Shown piece after piece: positions 15,320-41,105 of a stretch of DNA of 41,505 nucleotides (its first letter is position 1; every line of letters starts with the position of its first letter). The position numbers were made by a program, and so were the translations under genes. The notes beneath the pieces are model-generated. The model was not told the origin of the DNA. It saw only the letters and a program-made list of their open reading frames with translations, and ran no database searches. Origin of the DNA: Lentisphaerota bacterium (GTDB lineage: Bacteria; Verrucomicrobiota; Lentisphaeria; Victivallales; Victivallaceae); the NCBI GenBank assembly GCA_015061495.1, contig SUWL01000016.1, positions 1 to 41,505 on the forward strand, in the 5' to 3' direction.

Positions 15320-15327
15320 AACTCAAG

Positions 15328-16671: not shown

Positions 16672-17512
16672 CACCTCTTCCTTCCAATTTATTATATGCC
16701 GCGGTCAGGCGTTCATCAGCGGTAAGCAAACAGCCAACCGGACATTTTACTGCAGAAACGGCTTCCTGATCCAAAACCGTGACCGATTCATAATCGACTT
16801 GCGCCAAAAATCCATCCATTTTCACAGCATCCGGCAACATCCGGCTGCATTTGCCGCAACCGATACATCCGGCTTTACACATTTTTCGTTTTTCGGCACC
16901 TTTTATCGGAGAGTGGCAATAAACATGGACTTCTGCTTCTGCCGGAACCATTTTTATAACTCCGCGGGGACATGCTGCAGCACATTTTCCGCAGCCGACG
17001 CACAACTCCCGGTGAACGACCGCCACCTGTCCGATGATCTCGATCGCACCGAAAGGACATTTGCGGGCACAAGTGCCCAAACCGAGACAACCGTAACGAC
17101 ACTCTCCCGGTCCGCCGGCAACCATATTTGCCGCCACACAATCCTGAACACCATTATAATTCATTTTGCGAACTTCACCGATAAAACTGCGGCAGAGAAC
17201 CACTGCCTGCTTGCGCTCCACCTTGCCGGAGTCGATCCCGAGTGCAATGGAAATCGCAGAAATTTGTTCCGAACTGGAAACCGGACAATTTGCCGGACTG
17301 ACCTCTCCGGCAGCAAGGGCTTTGGCAAAATCCGCACACCCCGCTCTACCGCATCCCCCGCAATTAGCACCGGGAAGCAGTTCAAGTGCCAGATCCGCCC
17401 GGGGATCCGACTTGACACGGAACAATTTGACAAATGCTGCGATAACGACCCCGAGGATGATACCGGCAATCCCCATCAGCAAAATCGCATAAAGCAAAAC
17501 CATATAATCCAT
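16664..17512 (-). CDS. rnfB: Rnf electron transport complex subunit RnfB
   Basis: A 282-residue iron-sulfur subunit that takes electrons from ferredoxin. An N-terminal membrane helix (about 5-30) is followed by the RnfB-specific cluster motif at Cys51, Cys54, Cys59 and Cys76 (CGGCGRAGC, then NCP). Further cysteine clusters are CLGLGTCARKCP, CVGCGKCAAACP and CKAGCIGCGKC. The last one ends in RMLP, without the usual final CP. ATG at 17510-17512 follows AAGGTGA, and the gene begins 21 bases after the rnfA stop. Confidence 0.96.
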   Translation of the reverse strand: MDYMVLLYAILLMGIAGIILGVVIAAFVKLFRVKSDPRADLALELLPGANCGGCGRAGCADFAKALAAGEVSPANCPVSSSEQISAISIALGIDSGKVERKQAVVLCRSFIGEVRKMNYNGVQDCVAANMVAGGPGECRYGCLGLGTCARKCPFGAIEIIGQVAVVHRELCVGCGKCAAACPRGVIKMVPAEAEVHVYCHSPIKGAEKRKMCKAGCIGCGKCSRMLPDAVKMDGFLAQVDYESVTVLDQEAVSAVKCPVGCLLTADERLTAAYNKLEGRGDE

Positions 17513-17533
17513 AACGCAATCACCTTCTGAAAT

Positions 17534-18124
17534 TCAGCACAATCCGGAAAAACCGACAAACGCCATTGCCAGTATCCCGGCAGTAATCAATGCGATCGGT
17601 GTTCCTTCAAATGCTTTCGGAGGATCGGCAAGCTCAAGCTTTTCCCGGATGCTGGAAAAAAGCAGCAGAGCAAGGGCAAAACCTACTCCGGAGAAGGCCC
17701 CGAAAACCGTCGAATCCAAAACACTTCTCCCGCTTTCAGCATTTATCGTAGCCGCTCCGAGTACCGCACAATTAGTGGTAATAAGCGGCAGATAGATCCC
17801 CAACGCCCGGTAAAGAACCGGACTGACTTTCTGCAGCATGATTTCCAGCAGCTGCACCAGTGCCGCAATGACCAGAATAAAGGTCAATACCCTCAAAAAG
17901 CTCAAATCAACCACTTTATCATTGATATCAAAAACCAGCAAGTAGTTGGAGATCACTGAAGTTATACATGATGCCAGCGTCATTACCACTGTCACCGCGC
18001 CCCCCATCCCCAACGCAGTATCCAATCTTTTAGATACTCCCAAAAAAGGGCATATCCCCAAAAAACGGGTCAACACAAAGTTGTTGACCAGCACCGCTCC
18101 CACGGTCAGTTCCAGATACTTCAT
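17534..18124 (-). CDS. rnfA: Rnf electron transport complex subunit RnfA
   Basis: A 196-residue membrane subunit homologous to RsxA and NqrE. It has six hydrophobic segments and the two conserved cysteine sites FLGICPFLGVSKR and LPLITTNCAVLGA, which with RnfE hold the buried iron-sulfur centre. ATG at 18122-18124 is preceded by GGAGG at ideal spacing and overlaps the stop of the TM1266-type gene (ATGA). A 16-residue upstream extension is rejected because it would run through that ribosome binding site. It is the first structural rnf gene, giving the order A-B-C-D-G-E known from gammaproteobacteria. Confidence 0.96.
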   Translation of the reverse strand: MKYLELTVGAVLVNNFVLTRFLGICPFLGVSKRLDTALGMGGAVTVVMTLASCITSVISNYLLVFDINDKVVDLSFLRVLTFILVIAALVQLLEIMLQKVSPVLYRALGIYLPLITTNCAVLGAATINAESGRSVLDSTVFGAFSGVGFALALLLFSSIREKLELADPPKAFEGTPIALITAGILAMAFVGFSGLC

Positions 18125-18399
18125 AATTCCTCCGTTCCGGCAGCATTGCCGGGAAAACTCTGTTTGGAGCAAACGGTTTTCACACTCACTCCGGGCAACA
18201 TGCCCAATTTACCGGAAAGCGAGTTAATGACATCCCCGGGGGCATCCAGTATCACACTGATAACACTCAATGCCCGTTCCCGATGCGGAACCCCCATTCT
18301 GCCGATAATGTAACTGCCGCACTCATGCAGCAATTCATTTATTGCGGCTGCCTGGTTGACATCCTCAACAATTATACCGATCAATGCGATACGGTTCAC
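18121..18399 (-). CDS. TM1266-type small regulator (iron-only hydrogenase system regulator family)
   Basis: This 92-residue protein has an ACT-like beta-alpha-beta pattern: RIALIGIIVEDV, then INELLHECGSYIIGRMGVP, ALSVISVILDA and a C-terminal SGKLGMLPGVSVKTV. This pattern matches the small family first named TM1266, usually found beside [FeFe]-hydrogenase maturation genes and annotated as a putative regulator. The start is GTG at 18397-18399: AAGGAGG lies six bases upstream, inside the longer open frame, so the upstream GTG at 18420 is not used. It is translationally coupled to rnfA by ATGA and follows marR by 35 bases. Its role here, sensing or tuning electron flow through Rnf, is inference. 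Confidence 0.82.
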   Translation of the reverse strand: MNRIALIGIIVEDVNQAAAINELLHECGSYIIGRMGVPHRERALSVISVILDAPGDVINSLSGKLGMLPGVSVKTVCSKQSFPGNAAGTEEL

Positions 18400-24371: not shown

Positions 24372-25244
24372 TTATTTCATCATCAGTGATACTGCAAAAT
24401 TCAAAATCGGGATATCAAAAAACATCCAGAACCACGTCCCCAGAGTAATAAACGGAACAAACGGCAGCGCAGCATCAAGTTTGCGGGTGATCGCGATCCC
24501 CCAATAGGTTCCGAAAAAAGAACCGCAAAAAAGCGCAAATACCGCTCCCGGCAATCCGAGAAGCATTCCGCAAAGCACCGTAAATTTGATATCTCCCCAT
24601 CCCATAATATTCTTGCGGCAAATCAATTTGCCGGTCAAGGCGAATATTGCCAGCACCCCTCCGGGCAGAGCGCCGCCGGCAAAAGAGAACCACAATGCTT
24701 CCCAACGGCTGCCGCTTGACCACGCCCCCGGAAATATCCACGCGGTCAGCAGCGCCAATACCATGCCGGTATATGTCAATTTGTCCGGAACCACCCGGAA
24801 TCGCAAATCAGTCATTGCACAGGTCACTCCAAAAAAAATCATCAGCATCCGCCCCGGTATTACTGCCGCATCCTGACGGAGCAAACCGGTTTTCAGCACC
24901 AGCAATGCAACCAGTACCCCGCAGCACAACTCCACCATAAAGTAGGATGCTGAATAAGGTGTCCGGCAGCTCCGGCATTTCCCGCGCAGCACCAGATAAC
25001 TGATTACCGGGATGTTATCATACCAGCGAATGGGATTTCCGCAAACCGTACAGTGACTTGAGGCTTTGGAGAGCGATTCCCCCCTGGGTATCCGCCAGAT
25101 GCAGACATTGAGAAAACTGCCGATACATGCACCGAATGCAAAAATCCAGAATATCACGACCGCTCCGACCCACGGATAACTCAATCCCCAGGAATTGAAC
25201 CAGTAACCAGCAGACTGATGATACCACATGTCCCAATTCAGCAT
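24372..25244 (-). CDS. Prepilin peptidase (A24 family, PilD-type)
   Basis: A 290-residue polytopic membrane aspartic protease that cleaves and methylates type IV prepilins and pseudopilins. The zinc-binding loop has two CxxC pairs at Cys65/Cys68 and Cys90/Cys93. The catalytic Asp residues are Asp146 in TDLRFRVVPD and Asp218 in GWGDIKF, a variant of GxGDxK. GACIGSFLNVCIWRIPRGES is typical of the N-terminal domain. Its start overlaps the aroE stop by seven bases. No pilin gene lies in this window, so its substrates are elsewhere. Confidence 0.93.
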   Translation of the reverse strand: MLNWDMWYHQSAGYWFNSWGLSYPWVGAVVIFWIFAFGACIGSFLNVCIWRIPRGESLSKASSHCTVCGNPIRWYDNIPVISYLVLRGKCRSCRTPYSASYFMVELCCGVLVALLVLKTGLLRQDAAVIPGRMLMIFFGVTCAMTDLRFRVVPDKLTYTGMVLALLTAWIFPGAWSSGSRWEALWFSFAGGALPGGVLAIFALTGKLICRKNIMGWGDIKFTVLCGMLLGLPGAVFALFCGSFFGTYWGIAITRKLDAALPFVPFITLGTWFWMFFDIPILNFAVSLMMK

Positions 25245-26086
25245 CTTCCGGTGATCTCCTCTTCAAATCCCGCACGCATAGCTTCCAAATCGGGTTTGAT
25301 CCCCGTCCACAACTCAAAACTGGCAGCTCCCTGCCGGATCAGCATTTCTTTACCGTTGGCGCAGGGGATATTGAATTTTCCGGCGATCTTCTGCAATCCG
25401 GTAGGATGATAGATCGTATCAAATATCCGCAGATTCATGCCCGGATGGAAAAATTTTTCTGCCAGAGCCGGCGGATCATCCGGCTTTAACCCGACAGATG
25501 TTGCCTGAACTAAAAAATCGGCACGCTCCAGTAATTCTGCCACAGATTTTTCATCTCCCGGGACAGTACAACAGCTTATCAGATCCGGATAATATTTGCG
25601 GCATAAATCTGCCAATTCCTGCGCTTTATTCAATGTACGGTTGATAAAACTGATTTCCCGGCATCCGCATCCGGCAAGATGTACCGCTGTAGCCCTGGCG
25701 GCACCGCCTGCCCCGCAAAAAACGATCCGTTTGCCGGTCAATTCCTCGTCAAAACAATATTTGAGAGCTTCCTCCAATCCGATCCCGTCGGTAGAATCGC
25801 CCAATATTCTGCCATCCGAAATGAGCAGCGTATTGACACTGCCGCAGCGTTCAGCACGGCAAGTCAATTCATCTGCCAGCAGCACAGCCTGCTGTTTGTG
25901 CGGAACAGTCAGATTGACTCCGGCAAGATTTTTTCTGGCATATTCAAAAAACTCCGGCAGCTCATCCGGCACGACATGACGTATCCCGTAAGGTCTGCCC
26001 AAACCGGCACGCTCAAACGCCGCATTCTGCATCCCCGGGGAACGGCTGTGCCCCACCGGATCGCCGATTACCATATATTTTTTCAT
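25238..26086 (-). CDS. aroE: Shikimate dehydrogenase
   Basis: A 282-residue enzyme reducing 3-dehydroshikimate with NADPH in aromatic amino acid synthesis. VIGDPVGHSRSP gives the substrate Ser residues, NLTVPHK holds catalytic Lys64, and Asp100 lies in DSTDGIG. The Rossmann loop is GAGGAAR at 125-131 and INRT follows. The open frame runs 84 codons further upstream, but that part is not family-like and contains a good promoter, so ATG at 26084-26086 is preferred. The Shine-Dalgarno is weak. It heads the run aroE, prepilin peptidase, dCMP deaminase, rfaE2. Confidence 0.93.
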   Translation of the reverse strand: MKKYMVIGDPVGHSRSPGMQNAAFERAGLGRPYGIRHVVPDELPEFFEYARKNLAGVNLTVPHKQQAVLLADELTCRAERCGSVNTLLISDGRILGDSTDGIGLEEALKYCFDEELTGKRIVFCGAGGAARATAVHLAGCGCREISFINRTLNKAQELADLCRKYYPDLISCCTVPGDEKSVAELLERADFLVQATSVGLKPDDPPALAEKFFHPGMNLRIFDTIYHPTGLQKIAGKFNIPCANGKEMLIRQGAASFELWTGIKPDLEAMRAGFEEEITGRC

Positions 26087-26128
26087 TTTTTTATCACTTT
26101 TCACTGGAAATTTTACCATTTTGGGGTT

Positions 26129-26157
26129 AATATACATGAACATCAAACTATTCGCAA
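26129..26157 (-). promoter_or_regulatory. Candidate promoter for the aroE operon
   Basis: On the minus strand TTGCGA (26152-26157) is followed after exactly 17 bases by TATATT (26129-26134). Transcription would begin near 26122, about 36 bases before the aroE ATG. This supports the shorter aroE start. Confidence 0.6.
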
Positions 26158-26202
26158 GAAGTTTAACAAAATAAATATGGATTTTTTTGGAGATTTTTAC
26201 AA

Positions 26203-26778
26203 ATGAAACTTGGAAAATTGCGTTTTCTGGTACTTTTGGCGTGTTCGCTGGTATTTTGTTCCGGATGTGAAATATTCCGGGAAGCTCTGGAAGAAAGTTA
26301 CTCGTCGGAAGACCCCACCAGTGATGATTTTGAATCAAAATTCAATATCGGAGTATTCCAAATAGTCCAATATCCGCGGGCATCCATTCTGGAAAAAGAG
26401 ATCAGCATCGACGAAAACAACAGCATTTGCATCAATACCAATGCGCTGTTCAGCAGCAAACGCATCCGGCAGGCAAGAGCCATTCCCCGTCCCGGGAATC
26501 CGGATGTCTACGATTTGGAATTCCGTATCGACCGTATGGGCAAAACCCAGTGGATGGTAATGCATGGTTCAGCGCGCAATGACCGGGTGGTTATGATGGT
26601 CGATGACCGTTTTGTCGGCTTCTTCCGTCCGCAGGAATTCGTTGACGGCAAACAAGATTGGGTAAAAGTCCGCATCGGGGTTGACAACTACACAGCTAAA
26701 GGCATTGTAAAATTTGCCAAAAAGAATTATGAATACTACAATCCGGAAGCCAAAAGCTGGTTCAACAACCTCTTCTGA
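26203..26778 (+). CDS. Putative lipoprotein of unknown function
   Basis: This 191-residue protein has an N-terminal lipoprotein-like signal (MKLGKLRFLVLLACSLVF) ending in CSGC. The likely acylated Cys is residue 22; the box is atypical because a Cys stands where Leu is usual. The mature part has a segment (about 75-185) with the pattern of a SecD P1-head-like subdomain: TNALFSSKRIRQARAI, W-M-V-M-HGSARNDRVVMMVDDRFVGFF, then GIVKFAKKN. That resemblance is weak and only by eye. A GGAGA lies nine bases before the ATG. Its last 50 bases overlap the ppk1 start in another frame. Confidence 0.75.
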   Translation: MKLGKLRFLVLLACSLVFCSGCEIFREALEESYSSEDPTSDDFESKFNIGVFQIVQYPRASILEKEISIDENNSICINTNALFSSKRIRQARAIPRPGNPDVYDLEFRIDRMGKTQWMVMHGSARNDRVVMMVDDRFVGFFRPQEFVDGKQDWVKVRIGVDNYTAKGIVKFAKKNYEYYNPEAKSWFNNLF

Positions 26779-29073: not shown

Positions 29074-31431
29074 ATGAGTTGGATTGACTGGATGATTGTC
29101 ATAATTCCTGTCGCATTTGTTTACGGGATGGGGTTATTTTCAAGGAGATATGTCCGCAGTGTTGCAGATTATCTTTCTGCCGGACGGGTTTGCGGCAGAT
29201 ATATCATCAATGTAGGAGGTATTGCCACTGCGTTGAGCATTATCGGAATTGTATCCACAATGGAAGTGAACTACAAAACCGGTTTTGCGATGAGTTTCTG
29301 GTCCAGTATGCTGCTGCCGTTGAGTATGATCATGGGATTGACCGGATTCTGCAACTACCGCTTCCGGGAAACCAAAGCGATGAGTCTGGGGCAATTCCTG
29401 GAAATGCGTTACAGCCGGAAATTCCGCATTTTTGCGGCCGGTCTGCGTTCGATTTCTGAAATCATTGCCAACTCAATTATGCCGGCGATCGCCGCCAGAT
29501 TCTTTATCTTTTTCCTTGACCTGCCGACTCATATCGAATTTCTCGGCATGAGAATATCTGTATTCATGCTGATCATGGCGATCTGTCTTTTCCTTGCGAT
29601 AAGCATCATTTGCATGGGTGGAACTCTGGCACTGCTGATTACTGACAGTATCCAGGGTATGCTCATGTATCCTATTATGGTGATGTTCGTCGGCTTTGTC
29701 CTCTATAAATTTGACTGGTCAAACCAGATCGTTCCGGTGATGCTCGACCGTGTTCCCAAAGAAAGTTTCCTCAATCCCTTTGATATATCGGATTTGCGCG
29801 ACTTCAATCTTTTCAGTTTGTTGATCCTCCCGTTTGTCGCCAATATTATTCACCGTGCCAGCTGGATCGGTGCCGGTTACTCCACCGCCGCCAGATCTCC
29901 GCACGAAGCAAAAATGGGTGATCTGCTCGGCACCTGGCGCGGACAGCTCAATACCATTTTACATATCCTTTTTGCGATCATGCTGATTACGCTGCTTAAC
30001 CACAAAGACTTCGCCACGGAAGCGCACCAGGTTCGTTCCCATCTCGCTGAAAAAGTGAACGAAGAAACCATGCTCAACCTCACTCCGGAAATGAAAACCC
30101 GTTTGGACAACGTCGTTCATGAAGCCAAACCGATCATTCACGAAGTCGGGGTCGACGCCCCGTTGAGTACCAAAGAAAATATCGACACCAAATTTCTTGC
30201 TCCCATTCATCAGGAGCTGCTCAAAGGCGACAGCAGTACTGCTGACATGGATAAAATCGAACGTGAAGCCGTCGGCAATGCGAAGTTTCAGCAATACCGC
30301 ACCTATTTCCACCAGCTGCAATTTGCCGCTGTTATGCGGGAAGTCCTGCCGCAAGGCATAGTCGGACTCTTTTTCCTGCTGATGGTCATGGCAATGATCT
30401 CCACTGATGACACCCGTATTTACAGTGCTTCTCTGACCTTTACCCAGGATGTGGTGGTACCGCTTTGCAAAAAGCCTTTAACCATGAATCAGCACGTCTG
30501 GGCATTGAGATGGGTATCGATCGGAGTCGGAGTCATCTTCTTTTTCATATCGATCTATATGGCGCAGTTGACCTATATCAACCTTTTCGTCACCATCGTC
30601 TGTATGATGTGGACAGGCGGCTGCGGTCCGGTGATGATCTTCGGGCTTTACAGCCGTATCGGGACAACTGCCGCAGCATGGACAAGTCTGTTGACCGGTA
30701 TGTTCCTGTCCTTTATTACAATTACCATTGACCGTTGCTGGCCATCTCACATTTACCCCTGGCTGCAGCGTCATGACATGGTTGATTCCGTGGGGAATGT
30801 TTTAAAGACCCTGTCTGATCCCCTGCCCTTTATCAAATGGGAAATGAATCCGCTGCGCTGCCCGATCAACTCCTATGAGTTTTACTTTATGACCATGATC
30901 ATCACGCTGCTCCTCTATGTGATCGTCTCCTATGCGACCTGCAAAGAGCCGTTCAATCTTGACCGCATGCTCCACCGCGGCAAATACAATCTGGACGGCG
31001 ACAAAAAAGATACGGTCAAATTCAGCTGGAAAGGAATTTTCAAGCAGATCATCGGAATCAACAAAGAATACTCGACCGGAGACAAAGCGATTGCGTGGGG
31101 ATTTTTCATATTCACCTTTATTTACCAATTCCTGCTGATCTTCCTGGTGGTCATGATCTGGAACTACTTCTCGCCATTCTCTGCAAAATGGTGGAGCGAT
31201 TACTTCTACATCACTCACGTTCTGGTTCCGGGAGCCATTGCTTTGATCACTACGTTCTGGTTCGGATGGGGCGGTATCAAAGACCTGATCGCCCTCTTCA
31301 GAGCGCTGGAAACACGGGTAGTGAACCACTTGGACAACGGAACCGTTTCCGGCAACATGTCACTTGCTGACAAAGCCGAGTTGGAAGCTGTAGATGCGGA
31401 TAATGAACAGAATACTGAAATCCAAAAATAA
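29074..31431 (+). CDS. Sodium:solute symporter family transporter with large soluble insert
   Basis: This 785-residue transporter of the SSS (SGLT-like) family is far longer than the usual 500. Early SSS features are VADYLSAGRVCGRYI, GGIATALSIIG and FLEMRYSRKFR. Residues 310-412 form a hydrophilic, helix-rich insert between two membrane segments (for example LTPEMKTRLDNVVHEAKPI). The core resumes with MAMISTDDTRIYSASLTFTQDV. A further extension after residue 565 holds additional membrane helices and an acidic tail. ATG follows GGGGGG by five bases. The solute is probably a sugar or sugar acid, judging from the catabolic genes next door, but that is inference. A perfect-stem terminator follows. 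Confidence 0.88.
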   Translation: MSWIDWMIVIIPVAFVYGMGLFSRRYVRSVADYLSAGRVCGRYIINVGGIATALSIIGIVSTMEVNYKTGFAMSFWSSMLLPLSMIMGLTGFCNYRFRETKAMSLGQFLEMRYSRKFRIFAAGLRSISEIIANSIMPAIAARFFIFFLDLPTHIEFLGMRISVFMLIMAICLFLAISIICMGGTLALLITDSIQGMLMYPIMVMFVGFVLYKFDWSNQIVPVMLDRVPKESFLNPFDISDLRDFNLFSLLILPFVANIIHRASWIGAGYSTAARSPHEAKMGDLLGTWRGQLNTILHILFAIMLITLLNHKDFATEAHQVRSHLAEKVNEETMLNLTPEMKTRLDNVVHEAKPIIHEVGVDAPLSTKENIDTKFLAPIHQELLKGDSSTADMDKIEREAVGNAKFQQYRTYFHQLQFAAVMREVLPQGIVGLFFLLMVMAMISTDDTRIYSASLTFTQDVVVPLCKKPLTMNQHVWALRWVSIGVGVIFFFISIYMAQLTYINLFVTIVCMMWTGGCGPVMIFGLYSRIGTTAAAWTSLLTGMFLSFITITIDRCWPSHIYPWLQRHDMVDSVGNVLKTLSDPLPFIKWEMNPLRCPINSYEFYFMTMIITLLLYVIVSYATCKEPFNLDRMLHRGKYNLDGDKKDTVKFSWKGIFKQIIGINKEYSTGDKAIAWGFFIFTFIYQFLLIFLVVMIWNYFSPFSAKWWSDYFYITHVLVPGAIALITTFWFGWGGIKDLIALFRALETRVVNHLDNGTVSGNMSLADKAELEAVDADNEQNTEIQK

Positions 31432-31620: not shown

Positions 31621-32583
31621 TTATTTTACACTCTCTCTGACAATCAACCGGTAAGGCAGAGTGGAAATCCGGGGAATATTTTCTCCTGCCAGATATTTTT
31701 CAATAAGTTCCCGGACTTTCCGGGCGAGCTGCTGATATTCCTGGGTGACCGTGGTCTGGGGCGGAACGGCGTAGTTTGAGAAAAAAGTCTGCTCCGAAGC
31801 GATCAGTGAGATATCTTCCGGGATCCGTTTGTTGAATAGCGACATAGCATACAGCACGGTTATGCCGGCGCATCCTCCCGGGCAAAAAAGGGCATCGACT
31901 CCAAGTTTCAGAAGTTTGCCGACCTGTTCGACATAGCGGCTGTTGTCATTTCCGGAAAAGTGGATCAATTGCGAAGCATCCGGCAAATCAAGTTTTTTCA
32001 AAGCGGCACGGATCGCCTGTTCCCGTAATGACACGTTGCCTTCACCGGGATTACCGTGGATAATACATCCGATTTTTCGGCAGTTGCGTTCTTTGAGATG
32101 TTTCAAAGCCAGTTCCATCCCGGAAAATTCATCGGAATTGACAAAGAAAACATTATTACCAGATTTGACGGCACCCGGGTGACGATCCATAAAGATTAGC
32201 GGTTCAGCAAATTTATCTTCCCAATCAGCCAGTGCCGACGGCTCGATCCCGATCGCTGCCGCTGCACAAAAACGGATATCCGGGACTCTTTCCAAACTGT
32301 TTATCGGCAGGATCTCCACCCGGAATCCGGCTTCGGGCAGTTCCGCAGTCAGTGCCATAAGCAGCATATCAATGCAGCTTTGCACCGGATATGAACCGTT
32401 GTAAGGAGTGATGATCAGCACGTTTTTCAGCTTTTCAGAAATTCGCGGATGATAGTTGTATTTTACGGCGATCTTTCTGATTTTATCGGCGATATCCTTA
32501 TTCACCCCCGGATTACGACTGAAAACCCTTGATACCGTAGCTGGAGATACTCCGGCGATGTCTGCGATTTTGCGGATATTCAT
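31621..32583 (-). CDS. LacI-family transcriptional regulator
   Basis: A 320-residue sugar-responsive repressor. The N-terminal helix-turn-helix IRKIADIAGVSPATVSRVFSRN and hinge YNYHPR are classic LacI, followed by a periplasmic-binding-protein-like effector domain. The longer open frame begins nine codons earlier, but the AGGAG ribosome binding site lies inside it, so ATG at 32581-32583 is the start. It stands divergent from the SDR-led operon and convergent with the symporter, so either could be its target. The effector is unknown; a rhamnose- or cyclitol-like compound fits the neighbourhood. Confidence 0.93.
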   Translation of the reverse strand: MNIRKIADIAGVSPATVSRVFSRNPGVNKDIADKIRKIAVKYNYHPRISEKLKNVLIITPYNGSYPVQSCIDMLLMALTAELPEAGFRVEILPINSLERVPDIRFCAAAAIGIEPSALADWEDKFAEPLIFMDRHPGAVKSGNNVFFVNSDEFSGMELALKHLKERNCRKIGCIIHGNPGEGNVSLREQAIRAALKKLDLPDASQLIHFSGNDNSRYVEQVGKLLKLGVDALFCPGGCAGITVLYAMSLFNKRIPEDISLIASEQTFFSNYAVPPQTTVTQEYQQLARKVRELIEKYLAGENIPRISTLPYRLIVRESVK

Positions 32584-32642
32584 GAAACATTTTCTCCTTT
32601 TGTGAAACATTTTTAATATATCACCATTATTTGCGAAATCAA
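32583..32642 (-). promoter_or_regulatory. lacI-type gene promoter with two direct repeats
   Basis: On the minus strand TTGATT (32637-32642), 16 bases, TATATT (32615-32620). Two copies of TGAAACATTTT (plus-strand reading) start at 32583 and 32603, exactly 20 bases apart, so on the same helix face. They lie downstream of the -10 and could be sites for autoregulation. Confidence 0.5.
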
Positions 32643-32761
32643 GTCATCTGTTGCAGAAAGTTTTTCCTTTAGAATCGTTTTTTTGACTTGCAGAAAAGAT
32701 TTTTCAAATTAAATTATATTTAGAGAGTTTACCTTGACAAAAACACTTTTTAGGGAGATGT

Positions 32762-33511
32762 ATGATTATGGATTTTTCTGGAAAAACTGTGATGATCACC
32801 GGCGGAGCTTCCGGCATGGGATTGCTTTCCGGGCAGAAGTTTGCGGAATTGGGCGCAAATGTTGCATTACTTGATGTAAATGAAGCAGCGCTGGCTTCAG
32901 CAGAAGCCGGAATAAAAGCAGCCGGCGGCAATGTGCTGACGTTAAAAACAGATATTCGCAAATATTCTGAAGTAGAGTCCGCCGTCGGAGAAATCATTGA
33001 AAAATTTGGTGCGGTAGATATTTTACTCAATGCAGCCGGCGGTCTGGCTGCCCGCTGCTGCAATAGCAGTAATTACAGTTTTGAGCAGCTTCCCATTGAA
33101 GTAATCGATTGGGGAATTGATGTCAATTTGCGCGGTGCGATCTACTGCTGCCGGGCGGTTCTTGCCGGAATGATGGAACGTAAGTATGGCGTCATCATCA
33201 ATTTCGGTTCCGTCTCCGGCGAAGAGGGCGGCGGCGGGCCGACACTGGATTATTCTGCCGAAAAAAGTGCAATGAAAGGAATGACCAAATCTCTGGCGAT
33301 TTTAGGCGCTCCGCATAATGTCCGTTCGTGTTGTGTGATCCCCGGACCGGTATTGACCCGTCCCGGGATGGCAAGCATGAAAACATTGCTGGGCAGAGCG
33401 GCTGAACCTATCGAACTGGTGGATTTCATACTTTATCTTTGTTCTGATAAAGCAGCTTTTATCACCGGTTCGGCGCATGTTATCGATGGCGGCCGTCTGC
33501 TGGTACGTTGA
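32762..33511 (+). CDS. SDR-family NAD(P)-dependent oxidoreductase
   Basis: A 249-residue short-chain dehydrogenase. The Rossmann loop is TGGASGMG at residues 12-19, NAAGG follows, and the active site is YSAEK with catalytic Tyr and Lys. PGPVLTRPGM and FITGSAHVIDGG close the fold in the usual way. Start ATG at 32762 follows GGGAG closely; an ATG two codons later is equally possible. It is the first of five co-directional genes and is divergent from the LacI gene. The likely reaction is oxidation of a hydroxyl on a sugar, polyol or cyclitol. Substrate not readable. Confidence 0.92.
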   Translation: MIMDFSGKTVMITGGASGMGLLSGQKFAELGANVALLDVNEAALASAEAGIKAAGGNVLTLKTDIRKYSEVESAVGEIIEKFGAVDILLNAAGGLAARCCNSSNYSFEQLPIEVIDWGIDVNLRGAIYCCRAVLAGMMERKYGVIINFGSVSGEEGGGGPTLDYSAEKSAMKGMTKSLAILGAPHNVRSCCVIPGPVLTRPGMASMKTLLGRAAEPIELVDFILYLCSDKAAFITGSAHVIDGGRLLVR

Positions 33512-33544
33512 AGTAAAAATATACGGTTGGAGAATTTGCAGAAT

Positions 33545-34585
33545 ATGAATGTTTCAATGGTTTATTTCCCGGAGAAAGAGGTCGCTGTTTTTGAGAGACG
33601 GGATGAAAATTTTTCTCTGCAGCCGGATCAGGTGCTTATAAAAACTGACTATGATCTGATCAGTGCCGGAACGGAGCTTGCCAATTTCCATGAGATGCCA
33701 AATACAAAAACTGCAGGAGGTAACTTCCCGCATTATCCGGGGTACACTACCTCCGGACATATCGTCTGCACCGGTTCAAAGGTAAAAAATTACAAGCCCG
33801 GAGATCGTGTGGTCGCCGCGTGGGGCGGTCACCGGTCATGGATCGTCCGGACGGAAGACGAATACATGTGCTTGATCCCGGATGGATTTGATATAAAAAT
33901 TGCTGCAGTCGCGCATCTTTGTTCATTTCCGCTGCTGGCTGTCCGCAAGTTGCAAATCCAACTCGGCGAAGCATGTCTTATAGCGGGTCAGGGATTGCTG
34001 GGACTGTTGGCAGGTCAATTGGCAAGGATAGCCGGAGCTTATCCGGTTATTGTCAGTGATTGTTCTCCGGAACGCCGCGAACTGGCGCTGAAACTCGGTG
34101 CCAATTACGCTCTTGATCCGATGGCAGAAGATTATATCTCACGCGTGCTGGAATTGACAGAGGGAAAGGGAGTGGAAAAAGCCATTGAAGTTACCGGAAA
34201 TATCAAGGCACTGCAACAGTGTTTGGAGTGTACTGCTTGCAATGGCAGAATTTCATTATTAGGCTGTACCCGCATTTCAGACCAGACAATTGACTTTTAT
34301 AAATATGTGCACTGCAAAGGGATTTACCTTTTGGGGACTCACACTTCTGCCCGTCCGCAAGGCGACCGCACAGAGTGGGGATGGCCGGAAGTTGATGATT
34401 ACAAAACATTTTTCAAATTGGTAAAAGCCGGGAAGCTGGACGTTTCACCGATCATTTCAGAAATTGCCTCTCCGGAAAATGCCGGTGAGATATTTGAAAA
34501 AATCGGCATGCGTCCCAATCCGCCGTTGGGAATATTGCTGGATTGGACAAAAATTGATCCGGACGCCGGTGAAAATATTGGATAA
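33545..34585 (+). CDS. MDR-family dehydrogenase, SAGTE type without catalytic zinc Cys
   Basis: A 346-residue medium-chain dehydrogenase/reductase. The N-terminal GroES-like part has DYDLISAGTE where zinc alcohol dehydrogenases carry the catalytic Cys. The four-Cys structural zinc loop is also absent. YPGYTTSGHIVCTGSKV and KPGDRVVA follow, then a Rossmann segment GQGLLG near residue 153. Such SAGTE-type MDR proteins are often coded beside Gfo/Idh oxidoreductases, as here. The open frame begins at a TTG six codons earlier, but GGAG lies 12 bases before ATG 33545, so that start is chosen. The next gene begins 16 bases after the stop. Confidence 0.85.
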   Translation: MNVSMVYFPEKEVAVFERRDENFSLQPDQVLIKTDYDLISAGTELANFHEMPNTKTAGGNFPHYPGYTTSGHIVCTGSKVKNYKPGDRVVAAWGGHRSWIVRTEDEYMCLIPDGFDIKIAAVAHLCSFPLLAVRKLQIQLGEACLIAGQGLLGLLAGQLARIAGAYPVIVSDCSPERRELALKLGANYALDPMAEDYISRVLELTEGKGVEKAIEVTGNIKALQQCLECTACNGRISLLGCTRISDQTIDFYKYVHCKGIYLLGTHTSARPQGDRTEWGWPEVDDYKTFFKLVKAGKLDVSPIISEIASPENAGEIFEKIGMRPNPPLGILLDWTKIDPDAGENIG

Positions 34586-34601
34586 AGGGAGTTCTGTTGA
34601 A

Positions 34602-35630
34602 ATGCAAAAAATCAAAATTGCGCAAATCGGTTTTACTCATGAACATGCTGCCGGTAAGATCAATTCTCTGGAAAAGATGCCTGATGTTTATGAGATCGCC
34701 GGAGTGGTCAATGATTTGGGGATCAACTTGCCGCCGGATTATCTGACCGATGTGGATGCTCCTTTCCGGAAATATAAAATGCTCGCGTTGGAAGAGGTAC
34801 TTACTGATCCGGAAATCCGGGCAGTCACAGTTGAAGTGCCGAATAATGAATTGGTTGCACTTGCCATTGAATGTGCAAAAAATGGCAAGGCGATTCATAT
34901 GGATAAACCTGCTGGAGTGGATTTGGATTTGTACAAAAAGCTGCTGGATATCTGCAAAGAGAAAAAACTGCCGTTTCAGATGGGGTTCATGTTCCGGGGG
35001 AATCCGGCATTTCAGTTTTGTATCAAAGCGATCCGGCAGAAATGGATCGGAGAAGCAATTTCCATTGAAGCGGATATGAATCACGCTTACGGCGGAGAAA
35101 CTTATCAGAAGTATATTGCCCGTTTTACCGGCGGTCTTATGTTCAACTTGGGGTGTCACCTTATTGACTTCATCGTGGCGGCAATGGGGCAGCCGGAAAA
35201 CGTGACCGGTTTTCTCCGTTCAGCACCGGGAGATCCGGAAAATATCAAAAACAACTGTCTGGCGGTTTTGGAATATCATAATGCATTTGCAGTGGTCAGC
35301 TCCTGCAGCCGTCAGAAAAATTGTACTCAATCACGCCTGATCCGTATCGTGGGAACCAACGGAACGATCATCTTTTCGCCGATCGAACGTTTTGATGGAA
35401 AAAGTGTAGTTATCGAAATGGATTTAATGGAGGATATGGGTTATCCGGCCGGTAAGCATACCATATCTTTCCCGGTTCAATCTGATCGGTATGCCGGACA
35501 ATTGTCAGAATTGGCAGAAATGATCCGGGGAGAAAAGGAAAGCGTTTATCCGTTTGAACACGATCTGTTGGTGCATAAAGTCACCCTGGCTGCTTCCGGA
35601 TATATTGATTGGAAAAATAAAGGAGAATAA
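34602..35630 (+). CDS. Gfo/Idh/MocA-family oxidoreductase
   Basis: A 342-residue NAD(P)-dependent sugar or cyclitol oxidoreductase. The N-terminal Rossmann strand reads IAQIGFTHEHAAGKI, a variant lacking the full GxGxxG. The family Lys lies in MDKPAGV (Lys102, normally EKP), and FNLGCHLIDF at 181-190 carries the catalytic-site His186 and Asp189. The C-terminal beta-sheet domain is of normal length. ATG at 34602 follows AAGGGAG by 11 bases; the longer open frame lies within the previous gene and is rejected. Three bases separate it from the next gene. Confidence 0.92.
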   Translation: MQKIKIAQIGFTHEHAAGKINSLEKMPDVYEIAGVVNDLGINLPPDYLTDVDAPFRKYKMLALEEVLTDPEIRAVTVEVPNNELVALAIECAKNGKAIHMDKPAGVDLDLYKKLLDICKEKKLPFQMGFMFRGNPAFQFCIKAIRQKWIGEAISIEADMNHAYGGETYQKYIARFTGGLMFNLGCHLIDFIVAAMGQPENVTGFLRSAPGDPENIKNNCLAVLEYHNAFAVVSSCSRQKNCTQSRLIRIVGTNGTIIFSPIERFDGKSVVIEMDLMEDMGYPAGKHTISFPVQSDRYAGQLSELAEMIRGEKESVYPFEHDLLVHKVTLAASGYIDWKNKGE

Positions 35631-35633
35631 AAA

Positions 35634-36602
35634 ATGTACGCGATGATACTTGATCCGCAGTTGAATTTTGAGTGGAAAGAAGTTCCGGATCCCATACGTA
35701 AAGATGGAGAGGTATTGATCAAAGTTCATGCCGCTGCCGTCAATCGCGCTGATTTGATGCAGAAAGACGGTTGTTATGCTTCACCGCCGGATTGGCCGCA
35801 ATGGTGCGGTTTGGAAGTTTCCGGAACCGTGTTGGAAGCTCCGGAAAATTGTCACGTCAAAGCCGGAGACAAGGTTTGCGCTCTGCTCGGCGGCGGGGGG
35901 TACTCGGAATTGGTAACTGCTCCGGCAGGAATGGTGATCCCAATCCCGGAGGGGCTTTCGATGATCGAAGCCGCCACCTTACCGGAGGTTTGGGCAACGG
36001 TTTATCTGAATTTGCAGCTTGAAGCCGGCGGCTTGAACCCCGGAGATGTCTTTTACATGCAGGCCGGTGCCAGCGGAGTAGGTCTGGCTGCGATCCAATT
36101 TGCCAAACTGAAAGGGGCAAAAGTCATTACCACCATTGATTCTCCGGAAAAGGCGGAATTCGTCCGGAAACTCGGCGCGGATTTTGTACTGGATTACCGT
36201 ACCGAAGATGTCCGCCCGGTGATCGAAGCTAATCCGCCGACGGTCGCATTGGATTGTATCGGGGGAAAAATCATGGGGGAAAACTTCAAAAACATGGTCT
36301 TCGGCGGCCGCTGGATCATGATCGCCACAATGGCGGGCGGCATGACGCAAATCGATCTCGAAACGGTATGGCGCAAACGGATCCGTCTGATCGGCAGCAC
36401 GTTGCGCAGTCGCACTTCCGAAGAAAAAACCGCTATCCTGCAGGCTCTGCAAAAAGAACTCTGGCCGGAATTTACCAAAAGAAAACTTATTACCAATATC
36501 CACGCCGTTTTTCCGATCCGGGAAGTCGAATCGGCTCACGGAGTCCTCCGGCGGGCGGAAAATATCGGCAAAGTTGTTTTGACCTTCTGTGACGGAGAGT
36601 GA
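35634..36602 (+). CDS. Quinone oxidoreductase-type MDR protein
   Basis: A 322-residue zinc-free MDR enzyme of the NADPH:quinone reductase/PIG3 group. AAVNRADLMQKDGCY and GLEVSGTV are characteristic, and AGASGVG near residue 144 is the nucleotide-binding loop. Such enzymes reduce quinones or enones, or act on alpha,beta-unsaturated carbonyls. In this operon it could reduce an enone produced by an elimination step. ATG follows AGGAGA and the stop overlaps the GTG region ahead of the next gene. Confidence 0.92.
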   Translation: MYAMILDPQLNFEWKEVPDPIRKDGEVLIKVHAAAVNRADLMQKDGCYASPPDWPQWCGLEVSGTVLEAPENCHVKAGDKVCALLGGGGYSELVTAPAGMVIPIPEGLSMIEAATLPEVWATVYLNLQLEAGGLNPGDVFYMQAGASGVGLAAIQFAKLKGAKVITTIDSPEKAEFVRKLGADFVLDYRTEDVRPVIEANPPTVALDCIGGKIMGENFKNMVFGGRWIMIATMAGGMTQIDLETVWRKRIRLIGSTLRSRTSEEKTAILQALQKELWPEFTKRKLITNIHAVFPIREVESAHGVLRRAENIGKVVLTFCDGE

Positions 36603-36604
36603 AC

Positions 36605-37387
36605 ATGATGAAAAAATCTTTTTTCAACCGGCAGGAAACTGCGGTTACCGCCCTGCTTACCGCATCATCAATCCCGGAATTTGCCGCAAGGATCCGGGCA
36701 GCGGCGGCGGATGGAGCCGATGGGATCGCACTGGAAATAAATAATCTTCCTCCGGAAGAACGCACGACAGATAACTTCAGACTGCTTATGGGAGAAGTTC
36801 CGCTGCCGTTTATGTTCATCTGCTACCGCAACTGTCAATGGTTCGGCAATGACGATGAAGCCCGGCAGGAATTCCTGCTGCGGGCAGCGGAAGCGGGTGC
36901 TGAAGTTATTGACGTGATGGGCGATTTGTATGCCCCAAGTGATGATGAGTTGACCATGGAGCCGGCAGCCGTTGCCAGACAGAAGAAACTTATTGCTCAA
37001 ATCCATGAGCGCGGGAGTAAGGTTCTTATTTCATCTCACATGCCGGGATTACCGCCAAAATCCGCTGGAGAGATCATAAATTATCTTGAAATCCAATCGG
37101 ATCGCGGCGCAGATATTTGCAAAATCGTCACCAACTGCAATACCGAGGAGGGATTTCTGGAAGCGATCCGTGCCGACTTGATCCTTGGCAGGTCATTTGC
37201 GAAGCCGTTCATCCATATTTCCGGCGGTAAATACAACAAACTCCACCGCTTTTTGGGCACAAAACTCGGCTTGGCGATCACCTTTGGGGTGGCTGATTAC
37301 GCTCATGGTCCCTATTCACAACCGCTGATTTCGTCCTGCAAAAAGGTTCGTGACCTGATTCCATGGGATATCAGTTTTACGGAATGA
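36605..37387 (+). CDS. Divergent type I 3-dehydroquinate dehydratase homologue (Schiff-base TIM barrel)
   Basis: This 260-residue TIM barrel aligns by eye with type I dehydroquinase (AroD). The Schiff-base Lys is Lys173 in ADICKIV and the catalytic His is His145 in ISSHMP. Also kept are Glu44, Arg75 in CYRN, Asp103 in VID, Arg215 in LHRFLG, and Gln239. Two substrate-pocket positions differ from E. coli AroD: Arg48 is Asn46 and Glu116 is Met105. ATG at 36605 has GGAG seven bases upstream; the GTG two codons earlier is less well placed. As the last gene of an oxidoreductase operon it probably dehydrates a keto sugar or cyclitol rather than serving shikimate synthesis, though a housekeeping role is not excluded. 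Confidence 0.8.
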   Translation: MMKKSFFNRQETAVTALLTASSIPEFAARIRAAAADGADGIALEINNLPPEERTTDNFRLLMGEVPLPFMFICYRNCQWFGNDDEARQEFLLRAAEAGAEVIDVMGDLYAPSDDELTMEPAAVARQKKLIAQIHERGSKVLISSHMPGLPPKSAGEIINYLEIQSDRGADICKIVTNCNTEEGFLEAIRADLILGRSFAKPFIHISGGKYNKLHRFLGTKLGLAITFGVADYAHGPYSQPLISSCKKVRDLIPWDISFTE

Positions 37388-37443
37388 TGCCCTCGCATGA
37401 TTGTCAGATCATCACGCCGATGAAACGTTGAAAACAGAAAATT

Positions 37444-37484
37444 ACCGGCATTGCTCTTTTTTCTCAAAAGTAATGCCGGTTTTT
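37444..37484 (+). terminator. Terminator after the oxidoreductase operon
   Basis: ACCGGCATT (37444-37452) pairs with AATGCCGGT (37472-37480), with an inner CTTTT/AAAAG stem possible, followed by TTTTC. The A/T-rich left flank may let it act on the convergent rhaA transcript too. Confidence 0.75.
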
Positions 37485-37504
37485 CAATAAGCTGACAAAG
37501 TTGA

Positions 37505-38761
37505 TTATCTGCGGGAGAGAACCTGATTTTCATAGGTTCGAATATTTTCCATAAACTCCCAGTCCGGCGGGATATTATTTGTTTCGCAGAAGTAGTTCCA
37601 AACCGCGCCCCACGGCAGAGCTTTGGCAGCTTCCATTTGCGCCATCCGGCTGGTGAAGTCAAAGGAGTATTCCGCTTCGCAAATTTTGGCAAATGGTTCC
37701 AGCAAGGCGACCAGCAGGGCTTTTTGCATATTGCGTGTACCGATCACCCATGCCCCCACGCGGTTGATGCTGGCATCGAAATAATCCAATGCGATATACA
37801 CCTGATTTTTGCCCGCACCGCGAATTGTTTCCCGGGCGATAGACAGCAATTCATCGTTGAGCAGAATCACATGGTCGCTGTCCCAGCGCACCCCTCGGCT
37901 GACATGCAGCAGGATTTTTCCCTGCTGACAGCAGATGGCGGAAATTTTGTCCCCTATGGATTCGGTCGGATGGAAGTGTCCGGAATCCAGACAGATCAAT
38001 TTGTGGTTTTTCGCAGCATAAGAGAGGTAAAAATCATGAGAACCCACGGTAAATGATTCTGCACCGATACCGAAAAGTTTGGATTCCACGGCATCCAGAA
38101 GTTCCGTTTCCGGGAAATTTTCCTCAAAGGTGGCATCCAGTGATTCCAGCGGCCTCTGCCGCAAAATCAGCCGGTCGGCGGGAATATCTTTGAATCCGTC
38201 CGGCACCCACACATTGCACAAACATGGAGTTCCCAATACTTTGCCGAATTGAGCCCCGATCCGGCGGCACGCTTTGCCGTGATCAATCCAGAATTTCCGG
38301 ATAGCCAGATCCGGATGAGAAAGCGAAAGACCGTGATCGAGTTTTTCATGGGAATAATAAGCCGGAGCCAGATCCAGACCGATTTTACGTTCCTGCGCCC
38401 AGGCGAGCCAATCGGCATAATTATCGATGGTCAATGCATCGCGATCCTGACCGGGGAACATCTTATCCACTTCATGAGCTTGCAGATTCACCCGCAAAGT
38501 TCCGGCAAGCAGGCTCATCGCTTTATCCAGATCCTGCCGCAATTCACCGGCGTTGCGGGCGGCACCTGGATAGTTGCCGGTGACTTGACAACCGCCGGTC
38601 AGATCGTGTTCTACAGCTTCAAAACCTTTGACATCATCCCCCTGCCAGGCGTGGATGGATACCGGTTCAGCTGCCAGACGCCGCAATGCCGCATCGGTGT
38701 CAACTCCCAAAGCGGCATATTCCTCTTTGGCTGCGAGATAATTTTTTTCAATTCTGCTCAT
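37505..38761 (-). CDS. rhaA: L-rhamnose isomerase
   Basis: A 418-residue enzyme, the length of E. coli RhaA, converting L-rhamnose to L-rhamnulose with Mn2+. VSIHAWQGDDVKGFE near the N-terminus, GSHDFYLSYAA, CLDSGHFHPTESIGDKIS and HVSRGVRWDSDHV are metal- and substrate-site motifs. ATG at 38759-38761 follows AGGAG by ten bases; the open frame for 49 codons upstream is inside the rhamnosidase gene and rejected. It lies 16 bases after the rhamnosidase gene. Kinase (RhaB) and aldolase (RhaD) genes are not in the window. Confidence 0.96.
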   Translation of the reverse strand: MSRIEKNYLAAKEEYAALGVDTDAALRRLAAEPVSIHAWQGDDVKGFEAVEHDLTGGCQVTGNYPGAARNAGELRQDLDKAMSLLAGTLRVNLQAHEVDKMFPGQDRDALTIDNYADWLAWAQERKIGLDLAPAYYSHEKLDHGLSLSHPDLAIRKFWIDHGKACRRIGAQFGKVLGTPCLCNVWVPDGFKDIPADRLILRQRPLESLDATFEENFPETELLDAVESKLFGIGAESFTVGSHDFYLSYAAKNHKLICLDSGHFHPTESIGDKISAICCQQGKILLHVSRGVRWDSDHVILLNDELLSIARETIRGAGKNQVYIALDYFDASINRVGAWVIGTRNMQKALLVALLEPFAKICEAEYSFDFTSRMAQMEAAKALPWGAVWNYFCETNNIPPDWEFMENIRTYENQVLSRR

Positions 38762-38777
38762 AATACAGTTTCTCCTT

Positions 38778-41105
38778 TTACTTGTTTTCCCGTGCTGATT
38801 CCATGATACTGCCGGAGTACTCTCCGGCAGTAAGTATGCGCTCATCCGGCAAGCGGCAAATATAACCATCCGGGATCGTAATTTTATACTCCTGACGGGA
38901 AATTTCAACTTTTATTGCACCACCCGGAACCGGGATCCTGCCTTTGGCAAATTCCAAATCAAAAAGCCGGGGTGCAAACGCAAACTCCCGGAAACCGGGT
39001 AATAACGGTCTTACCCCCAGAATAACTCTCTGAAAGAAATTCACCGGTATCGTACCGAATGCATGGCACAGACTGCCGGAACCATCCATTGCTTCAACTC
39101 CGAAACCATGAATCCCGGCTTCATACAACGTCGGAGAACCGGTGGCTATACATCTGCCCCAATACTTTCTTATCCTCTCCAAACCGATATTTTCGACACC
39201 GCAAACCGCCGATGCCGAAAACCAGAAGTAATGAAGATAAAAATCCGGCATCAGGCACTTTTCCGAAACCAGTGCCGCGGCAAAAAACGGCATTCCAGCT
39301 TCCGAGGCTTCTCCGGTAAGCAGCCATAATGCATGAGCGAGCTGGCTGGACAATTTCACCGGATCTTTTTCAGTACAAAGCTCATCGACGATCCAGCCGG
39401 ACTCCGGAGAAACGAAACGTTTTTCCAGATTGGCAGCACTCAATTCCCGGCGGGCGCGATTTTTTTTGCCATCGTAAGCATAACCGGTAAATGCAGCAAG
39501 TTTTTCAACAGTTTTCACTGCAATAATAAACAGTGATGTGAGCATGGATTCTTTGGCTCCGCTGCAGCCATAACCGTTGGATTCAAAACTCCAATCAAAA
39601 AAGTTCCATCTGGCAGTTACTCCGGAACTGCGCAAAATCCCGTCTTCATCAGCCAGTTCCCAGGCGGCATCCAGAATTTTCTCCACATCCGGCAGATACT
39701 TTTTGACACCATCTCCATCACCGGAGTAGTAAAGATAATCCAGCAGCATCAATGGAGTATAAAGATTGGTCGCCGGGAATATCAACGGTTGTCCGCTGTA
39801 AAAAGGCTGCGGGATCACGGCCGGAATCATTCCGGATGGATGCTTCTGGGAAAAAAGCAATTCAAAGCAATGCCGGTGGATCTCCCCTGCCCCGAAACAA
39901 CTCAAACTGGCAAGATTATTCACGACCAGATCATTTGCCCAGAATGCCCTTTCTCGCCATGGGCAATCCGTAAAAACATCACTGGTACAGGCTGACAGAG
40001 TTTCACAACAGACCTCATTGATCCGGTTCAGCAGCTCATCGCTGCAGTAAAAACTGCCCCGTCTGACAAAGGGATAACGCAAATCTACGCCCCGGATGTA
40101 TTCTATTTTTACCGGGCGGTCAAATTTACGGATGGAAATCTGCAGCAGCCGGAATCCGCGTTCTGCGAAAGAGGTCGTCAACAAGTTGCACCCCTCTGCC
40201 AGTATAAAACAATCGGTAAAATGATAGTCCATGGTAAACTTGGTTTTCAACCGGCGGTTCACCATGGTTTCACCGTAGACGATCTGAACTTCAGTACCTG
40301 CCGGAGCATTGATCAGCATTTCCGCCCGTCCGGAAATTTCCCAATCAAAATCCACTATCATCCCCACACCGTTTTTCCCCGGCAGAATAACAGCTCCGGA
40401 ATTTTCATGCGGGGCGGCAAGTATGTCATCACGGCAGCTGATCCTTGCCGGCGGTATTGCAAAATGCTCCTCATCTTCCAAAAAAGGTGGTATTTCATGC
40501 GCATCATCCGGCAGATGGTTTACCACTTCGTAGCACTCGGCAATATCCACCGGGAAATAAACCTTCCGGTTCATTTCCGGCAGTTTATTGAGCCGTAACT
40601 CTTTGGCAAGTAAGCGTTCATCGACGACTTCCACGGCATTGCACCACGCATTACCCGGTTTAATCCGCAAATCACGGAATTCCATCTTGCCGGATTGTTT
40701 GGTGAACCAGGGGACATCCAGCTGCCAGGCTTTTGCCAGTTGTACCTGAAATGTCTCATCGCTTGACCACATGCCGGGGATTTCCGCGATCAGAGCCGGA
40801 ACCAGAGAGTTGAAAACGTAATTCTCTGCAAGCAGGGAATACACCTCAAAAAAAGCTTCATTCCTGCCGTTTTTCAAGTATGATGAAATCTCTATTTCAT
40901 CGTAAAAATTCAGCGTTGCTGATCCGCGAACCGGCCCGGAGTGGACAAAACTGCCATTGAGATACAAGCGGTAACGGCTGTCGGCAGATATCCGGATGAA
41001 TACCGGAGCATCGGTCTTCTCAAAATCCCACTCTTTTCTGGCATAAAAGAAACACTGCCTCTCCTGATCATAACCGGGACAGGTGATCCATTTGGCTTTT
41101 ATCAT
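38778..41105 (-). CDS. Alpha-L-rhamnosidase-type glycoside hydrolase (GH78-like)
   Basis: A 775-residue protein. Two N-terminal beta-sandwich domains (for example RISADSRYRLYLNG) precede an (alpha/alpha)6 barrel. The catalytic-acid motif region reads DCPWRERAFWANDL, a variant of the DCPxRxERxGWxGD motif of GH78. The C-terminal HAFGTIPVNFF and GVRPLLPGFREFAFAP match the end of the barrel and the closing beta domain. No signal peptide is seen, so it is probably cytoplasmic and acts on imported oligosaccharides. ATG at 41103-41105 follows AAGGAG by 11 bases; a GTG four codons earlier touches that site and is rejected. It is directly upstream of rhaA, which would use the released rhamnose. Confidence 0.88.
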   Translation of the reverse strand: MIKAKWITCPGYDQERQCFFYARKEWDFEKTDAPVFIRISADSRYRLYLNGSFVHSGPVRGSATLNFYDEIEISSYLKNGRNEAFFEVYSLLAENYVFNSLVPALIAEIPGMWSSDETFQVQLAKAWQLDVPWFTKQSGKMEFRDLRIKPGNAWCNAVEVVDERLLAKELRLNKLPEMNRKVYFPVDIAECYEVVNHLPDDAHEIPPFLEDEEHFAIPPARISCRDDILAAPHENSGAVILPGKNGVGMIVDFDWEISGRAEMLINAPAGTEVQIVYGETMVNRRLKTKFTMDYHFTDCFILAEGCNLLTTSFAERGFRLLQISIRKFDRPVKIEYIRGVDLRYPFVRRGSFYCSDELLNRINEVCCETLSACTSDVFTDCPWRERAFWANDLVVNNLASLSCFGAGEIHRHCFELLFSQKHPSGMIPAVIPQPFYSGQPLIFPATNLYTPLMLLDYLYYSGDGDGVKKYLPDVEKILDAAWELADEDGILRSSGVTARWNFFDWSFESNGYGCSGAKESMLTSLFIIAVKTVEKLAAFTGYAYDGKKNRARRELSAANLEKRFVSPESGWIVDELCTEKDPVKLSSQLAHALWLLTGEASEAGMPFFAAALVSEKCLMPDFYLHYFWFSASAVCGVENIGLERIRKYWGRCIATGSPTLYEAGIHGFGVEAMDGSGSLCHAFGTIPVNFFQRVILGVRPLLPGFREFAFAPRLFDLEFAKGRIPVPGGAIKVEISRQEYKITIPDGYICRLPDERILTAGEYSGSIMESARENK

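Follow-up and report, generated by a model that had tools for sequence, protein, structure and literature searches.

What does a homologue of type I dehydroquinase do when its gene lies among those of four oxidoreductases? This question is raised by five genes at positions 32762-37387 of contig SUWL01000016.1 from a Lentisphaerota bacterium of gut type; the window, i.e. the whole stretch of DNA analysed, has a length of 41,505 nucleotides. We suggest, with a probability of roughly 0.5, that these genes form a LacI-controlled operon for the degradation of a carboxylated cyclic compound, in which a ring hydroxyl is oxidised, a neighbouring group is eliminated and the product is reduced. The elements of the locus are:

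31621-32610, minus strand: LacI-family regulator (PF00356, 41.3 bits; PF13377, 73.1 bits), divergent from the operon; start probably at 32583.
32584-32761, no strand assigned: intergenic control region (conserved blocks and promoter scan).
32762-33511, plus strand: classical short-chain dehydrogenase/reductase (SDR; PF00106, 145 bits).
33527-34585, plus strand: medium-chain dehydrogenase/reductase (MDR) with AGTE replacing the usual zinc-site motif (PF00107, 86.6 bits); start probably at 33545.
34602-35630, plus strand: Gfo/Idh/MocA-type oxidoreductase (PF22725, 58 bits; PF01408, 34.7 bits).
35634-36602, plus strand: PIG3-type quinone/enone reductase (quinone oxidoreductase, QOR; TIGR02824, 329.6 bits, cut-off 296.8).
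36599-37387, plus strand: type I dehydroquinase-like lyase; start probably at 36605 or 36608; key residues K173, H145, R215, Q239 and R75, numbered from 36605.
37420-37495, plus strand: intrinsic-terminator-like hairpin (-21.9 kcal/mol, z -4.1), convergent with the L-rhamnose isomerase gene rhaA.

A first-pass annotation of this DNA had described five tightly spaced genes that diverge from a LacI gene and end at a terminator, and this layout is confirmed throughout: all five open reading frames are open, each product scores above the Pfam cut-off of the stated family, and none of 200 shuffled sequences folds as well as the hairpin, which is accompanied by a T run. The hairpin is absent from the list of a simple terminator scan, its loop probably being longer than the scan permits. 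Comparison with relatives makes ATG 33545 a more likely start of the MDR gene than 33527, and ATG 36605 or 36608 a more likely start of the lyase gene than GTG 36599 (Lys173, counted from ATG 36605, becomes residue 175 if counted from the GTG). With these revised starts the intergenic gaps are 33, 16, 3 and 2-5 nucleotides (nt) along the operon, and a spacing of 2-33 nt fits a single transcript. In the control region the promoter scan gives a putative lacI promoter on the minus strand (TTGATT-16-TATATT), and comparison of 26 LacI-operon intergenic regions reveals a conserved putative element, TGTTGCAGAAAGTTTTTC, at 32649-32666. A catabolic-type operon with a LacI gene of its own, as annotated before, is supported. 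A scan of the window's own genome with TGTTGCAGAAANTTTTTC yielded 7 sites at up to 2 mismatches, whereas the reversed pattern used as control had none; besides the one in the operon, five fall within called genes and one (L187) is intergenic, with no sugar-gene neighbours by eye, and the idea of a regulon defined by this operator was dropped.

AroD (PF01487) and the lyase share the type I dehydroquinase fold, the Schiff-base Lys, the His and the carboxylate-binding Arg and Gln, but the lyase is encoded in an oxidoreductase operon, lacks Glu46 and Arg48, and its carriers mostly possess AroQ as well. The residues were compared in an alignment of 60 lyase-family members with 7 AroD proteins (positions in AroD-style numbering). 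K170, H143, R82 and R213 are present in 60/60 family members each and Q236 in 58/60, all five being found in 7/7 AroD proteins; the Schiff-base Lys named by the first-pass annotation (Lys173 of the lyase) and its catalytic His are thus invariant in the family. In contrast, E46 and R48 occur in 0/60 family members each as compared to 7/7 AroD proteins, their placement being the same in the profile alignment and in the larger alignment, and E86 is retained in a single member (1/60). The lyase reaches 46 bits against the aroD equivalog TIGR01093, i.e. less than the cut-off of 139.3, and in a tree the lyase and its distant relatives are split from the 7 AroD proteins with a support of 100. In St-DHQ1 the substrate's C1 carboxylate is bound by R213 and Q236 (PMC9902378). 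Glu46 and Arg48 are the residues that hold the C4 and C5 hydroxyls of dehydroquinate. The retention of the R213/Q236 pair together with the loss of E46/R48 therefore suggests that the substrate is an acid whose far end is different. The active site appears to be partly rebuilt, suggesting a dehydroquinase fold that was repurposed with its catalytic and carboxylate-binding residues fixed, and we expect a carboxylated ring as substrate (for instance a quinate-like, ulosonic or uronic acid) in preference to an inositol or a neutral sugar.

Type I 3-dehydroquinate dehydratase is the annotation of plasmid-encoded homologues from Halobellus (two copies), Mesorhizobium and Natrinema (L175 6099-8729, L176 8875-9681, L177 7782-8672). 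The tree places them outside AroD, and their genes have as neighbours SDR genes and MaoC-like, FAH-family or other catabolic ones.

The SDR has the glycine-rich NAD site and the Ser-Tyr-Lys catalytic residues of classical SDRs: G14, G18, S150, Y164 and K168, and likewise D38, are shared by at least 95% of the 30 homologues compared. At least 95% of 20 homologues retain A47-G48-T49-E50 of the MDR, and we take this AGTE motif to mean that a catalytic zinc is missing. In the Gfo/Idh protein, for which PF01408, PF02894 and PF22725 are all over cut-off, D101-K102-P103, H186 and D189 recur in at least 95% of the 30 homologues aligned. Its N-terminus reads IGFTHEHA and not GxGxxG, the usual N-terminal motif of Gfo/Idh/MocA enzymes, and G10, H13, E14 and H15 are conserved to the same extent. 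Homologue alignments show that the residues we presume to be catalytic are retained in the SDR, the Gfo/Idh protein and an extended SDR, here termed EPI, that is found in related operons; EPI gave no match in the window's own genome in a search run without a positive control. The best relatives of the QOR with a solved structure include human PIG3-like chains (2oby, 2j8z), and its conserved S170 and K173 would, we assume, fit NADPH enzymes. An Asp of the QOR had first been taken as a sign of NADH, which would have allowed a redox-neutral NAD cycle; as S170 and K173 fit NADPH, this idea was given up and no cofactor is claimed.

Is the gene set more than a local accident? The lyase was searched for in 387 genomes of the phylum and is found in 62 of them, the window's own included. 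A first set of neighbourhoods comprised 60 stretches and covered 56 of the 61 further carriers (G067, G073, G092, G246 and G281 were left out); genes were called with a home-made caller that misses some genes, e.g. in L151. A second set of named loci consisted of the best 80 of 216 relatives and overlaps the first, so that the two are not independent. Partner homologues had to be at least 33% identical, on the same strand and within 6 kb of the lyase, LacI at least 40% identical on either strand. By this measure the SDR is found near the lyase in 41 of the 80 best loci, the QOR in 36, the Gfo/Idh gene in 30, the MDR in 22, EPI in 21 and LacI in 24. Of the five partner enzymes (SDR, QOR, Gfo/Idh, MDR, EPI), one or more accompany the lyase in 58 loci, two or more in 40 and three or more in 28. 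Some absences reflect contig ends, more than 3 kb of upstream and 1.5 kb of downstream sequence being available in 58/80 loci. One locus (L098, Lentisphaerae SIG82) contains all six genes of the window in identical order with 66-93% identity, and this match, together with the wide recurrence of parts, indicates that the gene set is more than chance. A smaller unit of SDR, QOR and lyase occurs in several loci, including those of Planctomycetota and Phycisphaerae metagenome-assembled genomes (MAGs; L164, L166), a distant version with several SDRs on a Mesorhizobium plasmid (lyase 32%, QOR 38% identity), and the operon itself in a cultured strain, Victivallis vadensis DSM 14823 (L143). According to the record titles, many named loci stem from herbivore gut MAGs. 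The neighbourhood search that the first-pass annotation had proposed thus bears out the recurrence of its "five-gene set", but not a fixed composition: many loci add EPI, which is absent from the window, a few add a metallo-beta-lactamase (MBL)-fold protein or a serine hydrolase, and there are both lyase loci without partners and similar operons without the lyase.

The operon looks mosaic. Compared to L098 its SDR, MDR, Gfo/Idh and QOR are 89-93% identical, but its lyase shows 66% identity and is closer to that of L095 (74-75%), and the QOR is nearest to that of L097 (93%). The serine hydrolase, a PF00144 beta-lactamase-family protein (173 bits for the L106 copy), occurs in eight operons (L105, L106, L119, L137, L148, L152, L159, L160). 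A D-aminoacylase-like amidohydrolase gene lies upstream of SDR and lyase in three Lentisphaeria loci (L102, L104, L107), and a D-aminoacylase gene (11668-13266) lies approximately 3 kb from the distant lyase homologue of Natrinema L177.

The QOR provides a second view of the association. Relatives at least 66% identical to it are encoded in 50 of the 387 phylum genomes, the window's own included, and 41 of these 50 also have the lyase, as compared to 62/387 overall; Fisher's test gives p 6e-31 without a correction for kinship. Where both genes are present (41 genomes), they are located within 8 kb on one contig in 26 cases.

Based on these findings, we propose the following route. In the first step the SDR, the MDR and/or the Gfo/Idh enzyme would oxidise a ring hydroxyl to a ketone, with which Lys173 of the lyase would then form a Schiff base. 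Assisted by His145, the lyase would next eliminate the beta leaving group, either water or a ring or glycosidic oxygen, near the carboxylate, giving an enone. Finally, the PIG3-type QOR may saturate the enone, or another dehydrogenase may reset the oxidation level. That all these enzymes serve a common pathway, the order of the steps, the action of the QOR on the lyase product and the acidic nature of the substrate are what we infer. As a more general and tentative idea, such genes might constitute a widespread cassette, in which a repurposed dehydroquinase strips the beta group from oxidised carboxylated rings (quinate-like, ulosonic, uronic) and a PIG3-type reductase saturates the enone, so that herbivore-gut and other bacteria could dehydroxylate such acids, or open them, with no aromatic intermediate on the way.

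Several observations weigh against the proposed route. None of the five partner enzymes is found within 6 kb of the lyase in 22 of the 80 named loci, and among the 41 genomes that encode QOR and lyase there are 15 in which the two are not within 8 kb of each other, contig ends possibly accounting for some. No lyase match was obtained in nine of the 50 genomes that have a close QOR, and most of these nine keep other genes of the set beside the QOR: L191 contains LacI, MDR, EPI, Gfo/Idh, MBL and QOR, one to several other set enzymes accompany the QOR in L192, L193, L195, L196, L197 and L199, and LacI and an SDR are near it in L198, the QOR of L194 being the only member of the set. As these lyase-free operons retain the other genes, the latter can work without the lyase, which is a frequent, not an obligatory, member of the set. 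The enone-reducing role of the QOR is deduced from its family only and the candidate substrate class from active-site residues, and the conservation of Arg213 might have a reason other than carboxylate binding. Moreover, no transporter is constantly linked to the lyase loci.

A 384-399-aa protein that recurs in the lyase-free operons was considered as a substitute for the lyase; by sequence it resembles another Gfo/Idh protein, no family search was made on it, and no replacement was found. Upstream of the LacI gene the window encodes a 785-aa sodium:solute symporter (SSF; 29074-31431, plus strand), and relatives approximately 50% identical to it lie downstream of the lyase in L116 (9905-12211) and L118 (9904-12213). 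The symporter is a weakly supported candidate transporter.

Among the alternatives, the one that survives best, although we regard it as unlikely, is the same sequence of oxidation, elimination and reduction on a neutral keto-sugar, 3-keto-glycoside or keto-inositol. An array of dehydrogenases together with a LacI regulator is consistent with the catabolism of a sugar or cyclitol, the Gfo/Idh protein is weakly similar to the DgpA family, whose members oxidise position 3, and like inositol catabolism (IolG, IolM) the operon combines Gfo/Idh and MDR dehydrogenases. The Gfo/Idh protein and the MDR also show weak similarity to IolG (TIGR04380, 53.3 bits) and IolM (89.1 bits), although these scores are far below the cut-offs of 355 and 450 and the catabolism of inositol and keto-inositol uses a dehydratase of another kind. 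The routes for 3-keto-glycosides resemble the proposed one in that oxidation, elimination and a reset of the oxidation level follow each other, their lyases having other folds; here, the carboxylate-binding pair of St-DHQ1 that is kept in the window lyase (R213 and Q236, as counted above) speaks for an acid. Of the earlier suggestion of a "cyclic polyol or sugar" as substrate our reading keeps the oxidise-eliminate-reduce logic, whereas a neutral sugar or cyclitol is less supported in view of the retained R213/Q236 and the absent E46/R48.

Still less probable is a quinate/shikimate-type catabolic operon, in which the lyase would act on 3-dehydroquinate or a closely related compound and the enone would then be reduced. 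The AroD-like fold, the catalytic and carboxylate-binding residues and the many herbivore gut loci agree with it, but the residues that recognise the far end of dehydroquinate are missing and the TIGR01093 score is low. The distribution of shikimate-pathway enzymes is informative in this respect. The first-pass annotation had left it to be checked whether the genome has another dehydroquinase, and it does: the window's own genome (89% complete) contains a type II dehydroquinase and chorismate synthase, the lyase being its single PF01487 match. AroQ (type II) is likewise present in 57 of the 61 other carriers (exceptions: G025, G331, G263, G353), which means that the lyase is not the housekeeping dehydroquinase in most carriers. 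G025 has chorismate synthase, no AroQ match and the lyase (contig C15:30132-30824) as only PF01487 protein. This would suit a dehydroquinate-directed enzyme, and the G025 lyase may serve the shikimate pathway as a dehydroquinase side activity, but an assembly gap may also explain the pattern, and none of the partner enzymes is near this lyase (L101). A shikimate dehydrogenase-like gene of the window (25241-26338, minus strand; Shikimate_dh_N, 77.6 bits), approximately 6 kb upstream of the operon and beside a prepilin peptidase gene, is probably an ordinary aroE.

Finally, it is very doubtful that the lyase acts in a sugar-acid pathway by C-C cleavage, in the manner of a class I aldolase or a hydrolase, instead of being a dehydratase. 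A Schiff-base Lys and a carboxylate-binding Arg suit keto acids, genes of an FAH-family hydrolase and a D-lactate dehydrogenase lie next to the Mesorhizobium homologue, and altronate dehydratase and Mannitol_dh-family reductase genes (L116) or ILVD/EDD and DHDPS-family genes (L139) downstream of the lyase are suggestive only, but His143, which serves the dehydratase reaction, is invariant and sugar-acid genes are near few of the loci inspected.

The preferred reading, degradation of a carboxylated ring by oxidation, elimination and reduction, has a parallel in the sialic acid route of RgNanOx/YjhC. RgNanOx is reported to oxidise C4 of an ulosonic acid; the elimination that comes next, between C3 and C2 (the carbon with the carboxylate), breaks the bond at C2 (PMC7535918). 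As in the proposed route, a ring hydroxyl of a carboxylated ring is oxidised and a group beta to the new ketone is lost; there, however, one Gfo/Idh enzyme performs all steps without a Schiff base, whereas the window encodes a separate lyase of another fold. YjhC and the window Gfo/Idh protein match weakly (E 4.3e-5). With PIG3-type NAD(P)H:quinone oxidoreductases the QOR shares a score above the TIGR02824 cut-off, but it differs from them in its genomic link to the lyase. The literature yielded no matching operon description, in line with the earlier statement that no pathway with this exact set was known; this is a weak negative, as most subscription papers fell outside the search, and nothing useful was found on anaerobic quinate metabolism. 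Distant members of the lyase clade carry the public label "type I 3-dehydroquinate dehydratase", yet most tested carriers of the phylum own a type II enzyme. Naming the substrate would correct such labels, show how a dehydroquinase fold is re-aimed with its catalytic and carboxylate-binding residues fixed, and assign a catabolic function to the operon of cultured V. vadensis DSM 14823.

Two rhamnose-related genes follow the operon:

37505-38761, minus strand: L-rhamnose isomerase (rhaA; PF06134, 572 bits), convergent to the operon.
38778-41105, minus strand: alpha-L-rhamnosidase-like gene, convergent and downstream of the operon.

A link to rhamnose was considered and rejected, and the two genes are not counted in the system, since the other compared loci contain no homologue of rhaA or of the alpha-L-rhamnosidase gene; a GH106-type gene precedes the lyase in one other locus (L112). 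Further upstream, at 14213-18172 on the minus strand, the window encodes an Rnf/Nqr-type ion-pumping cluster consisting of NQR2/RnfD, RnfC-like and RnfB-like proteins and an Rnf-Nqr membrane subunit.

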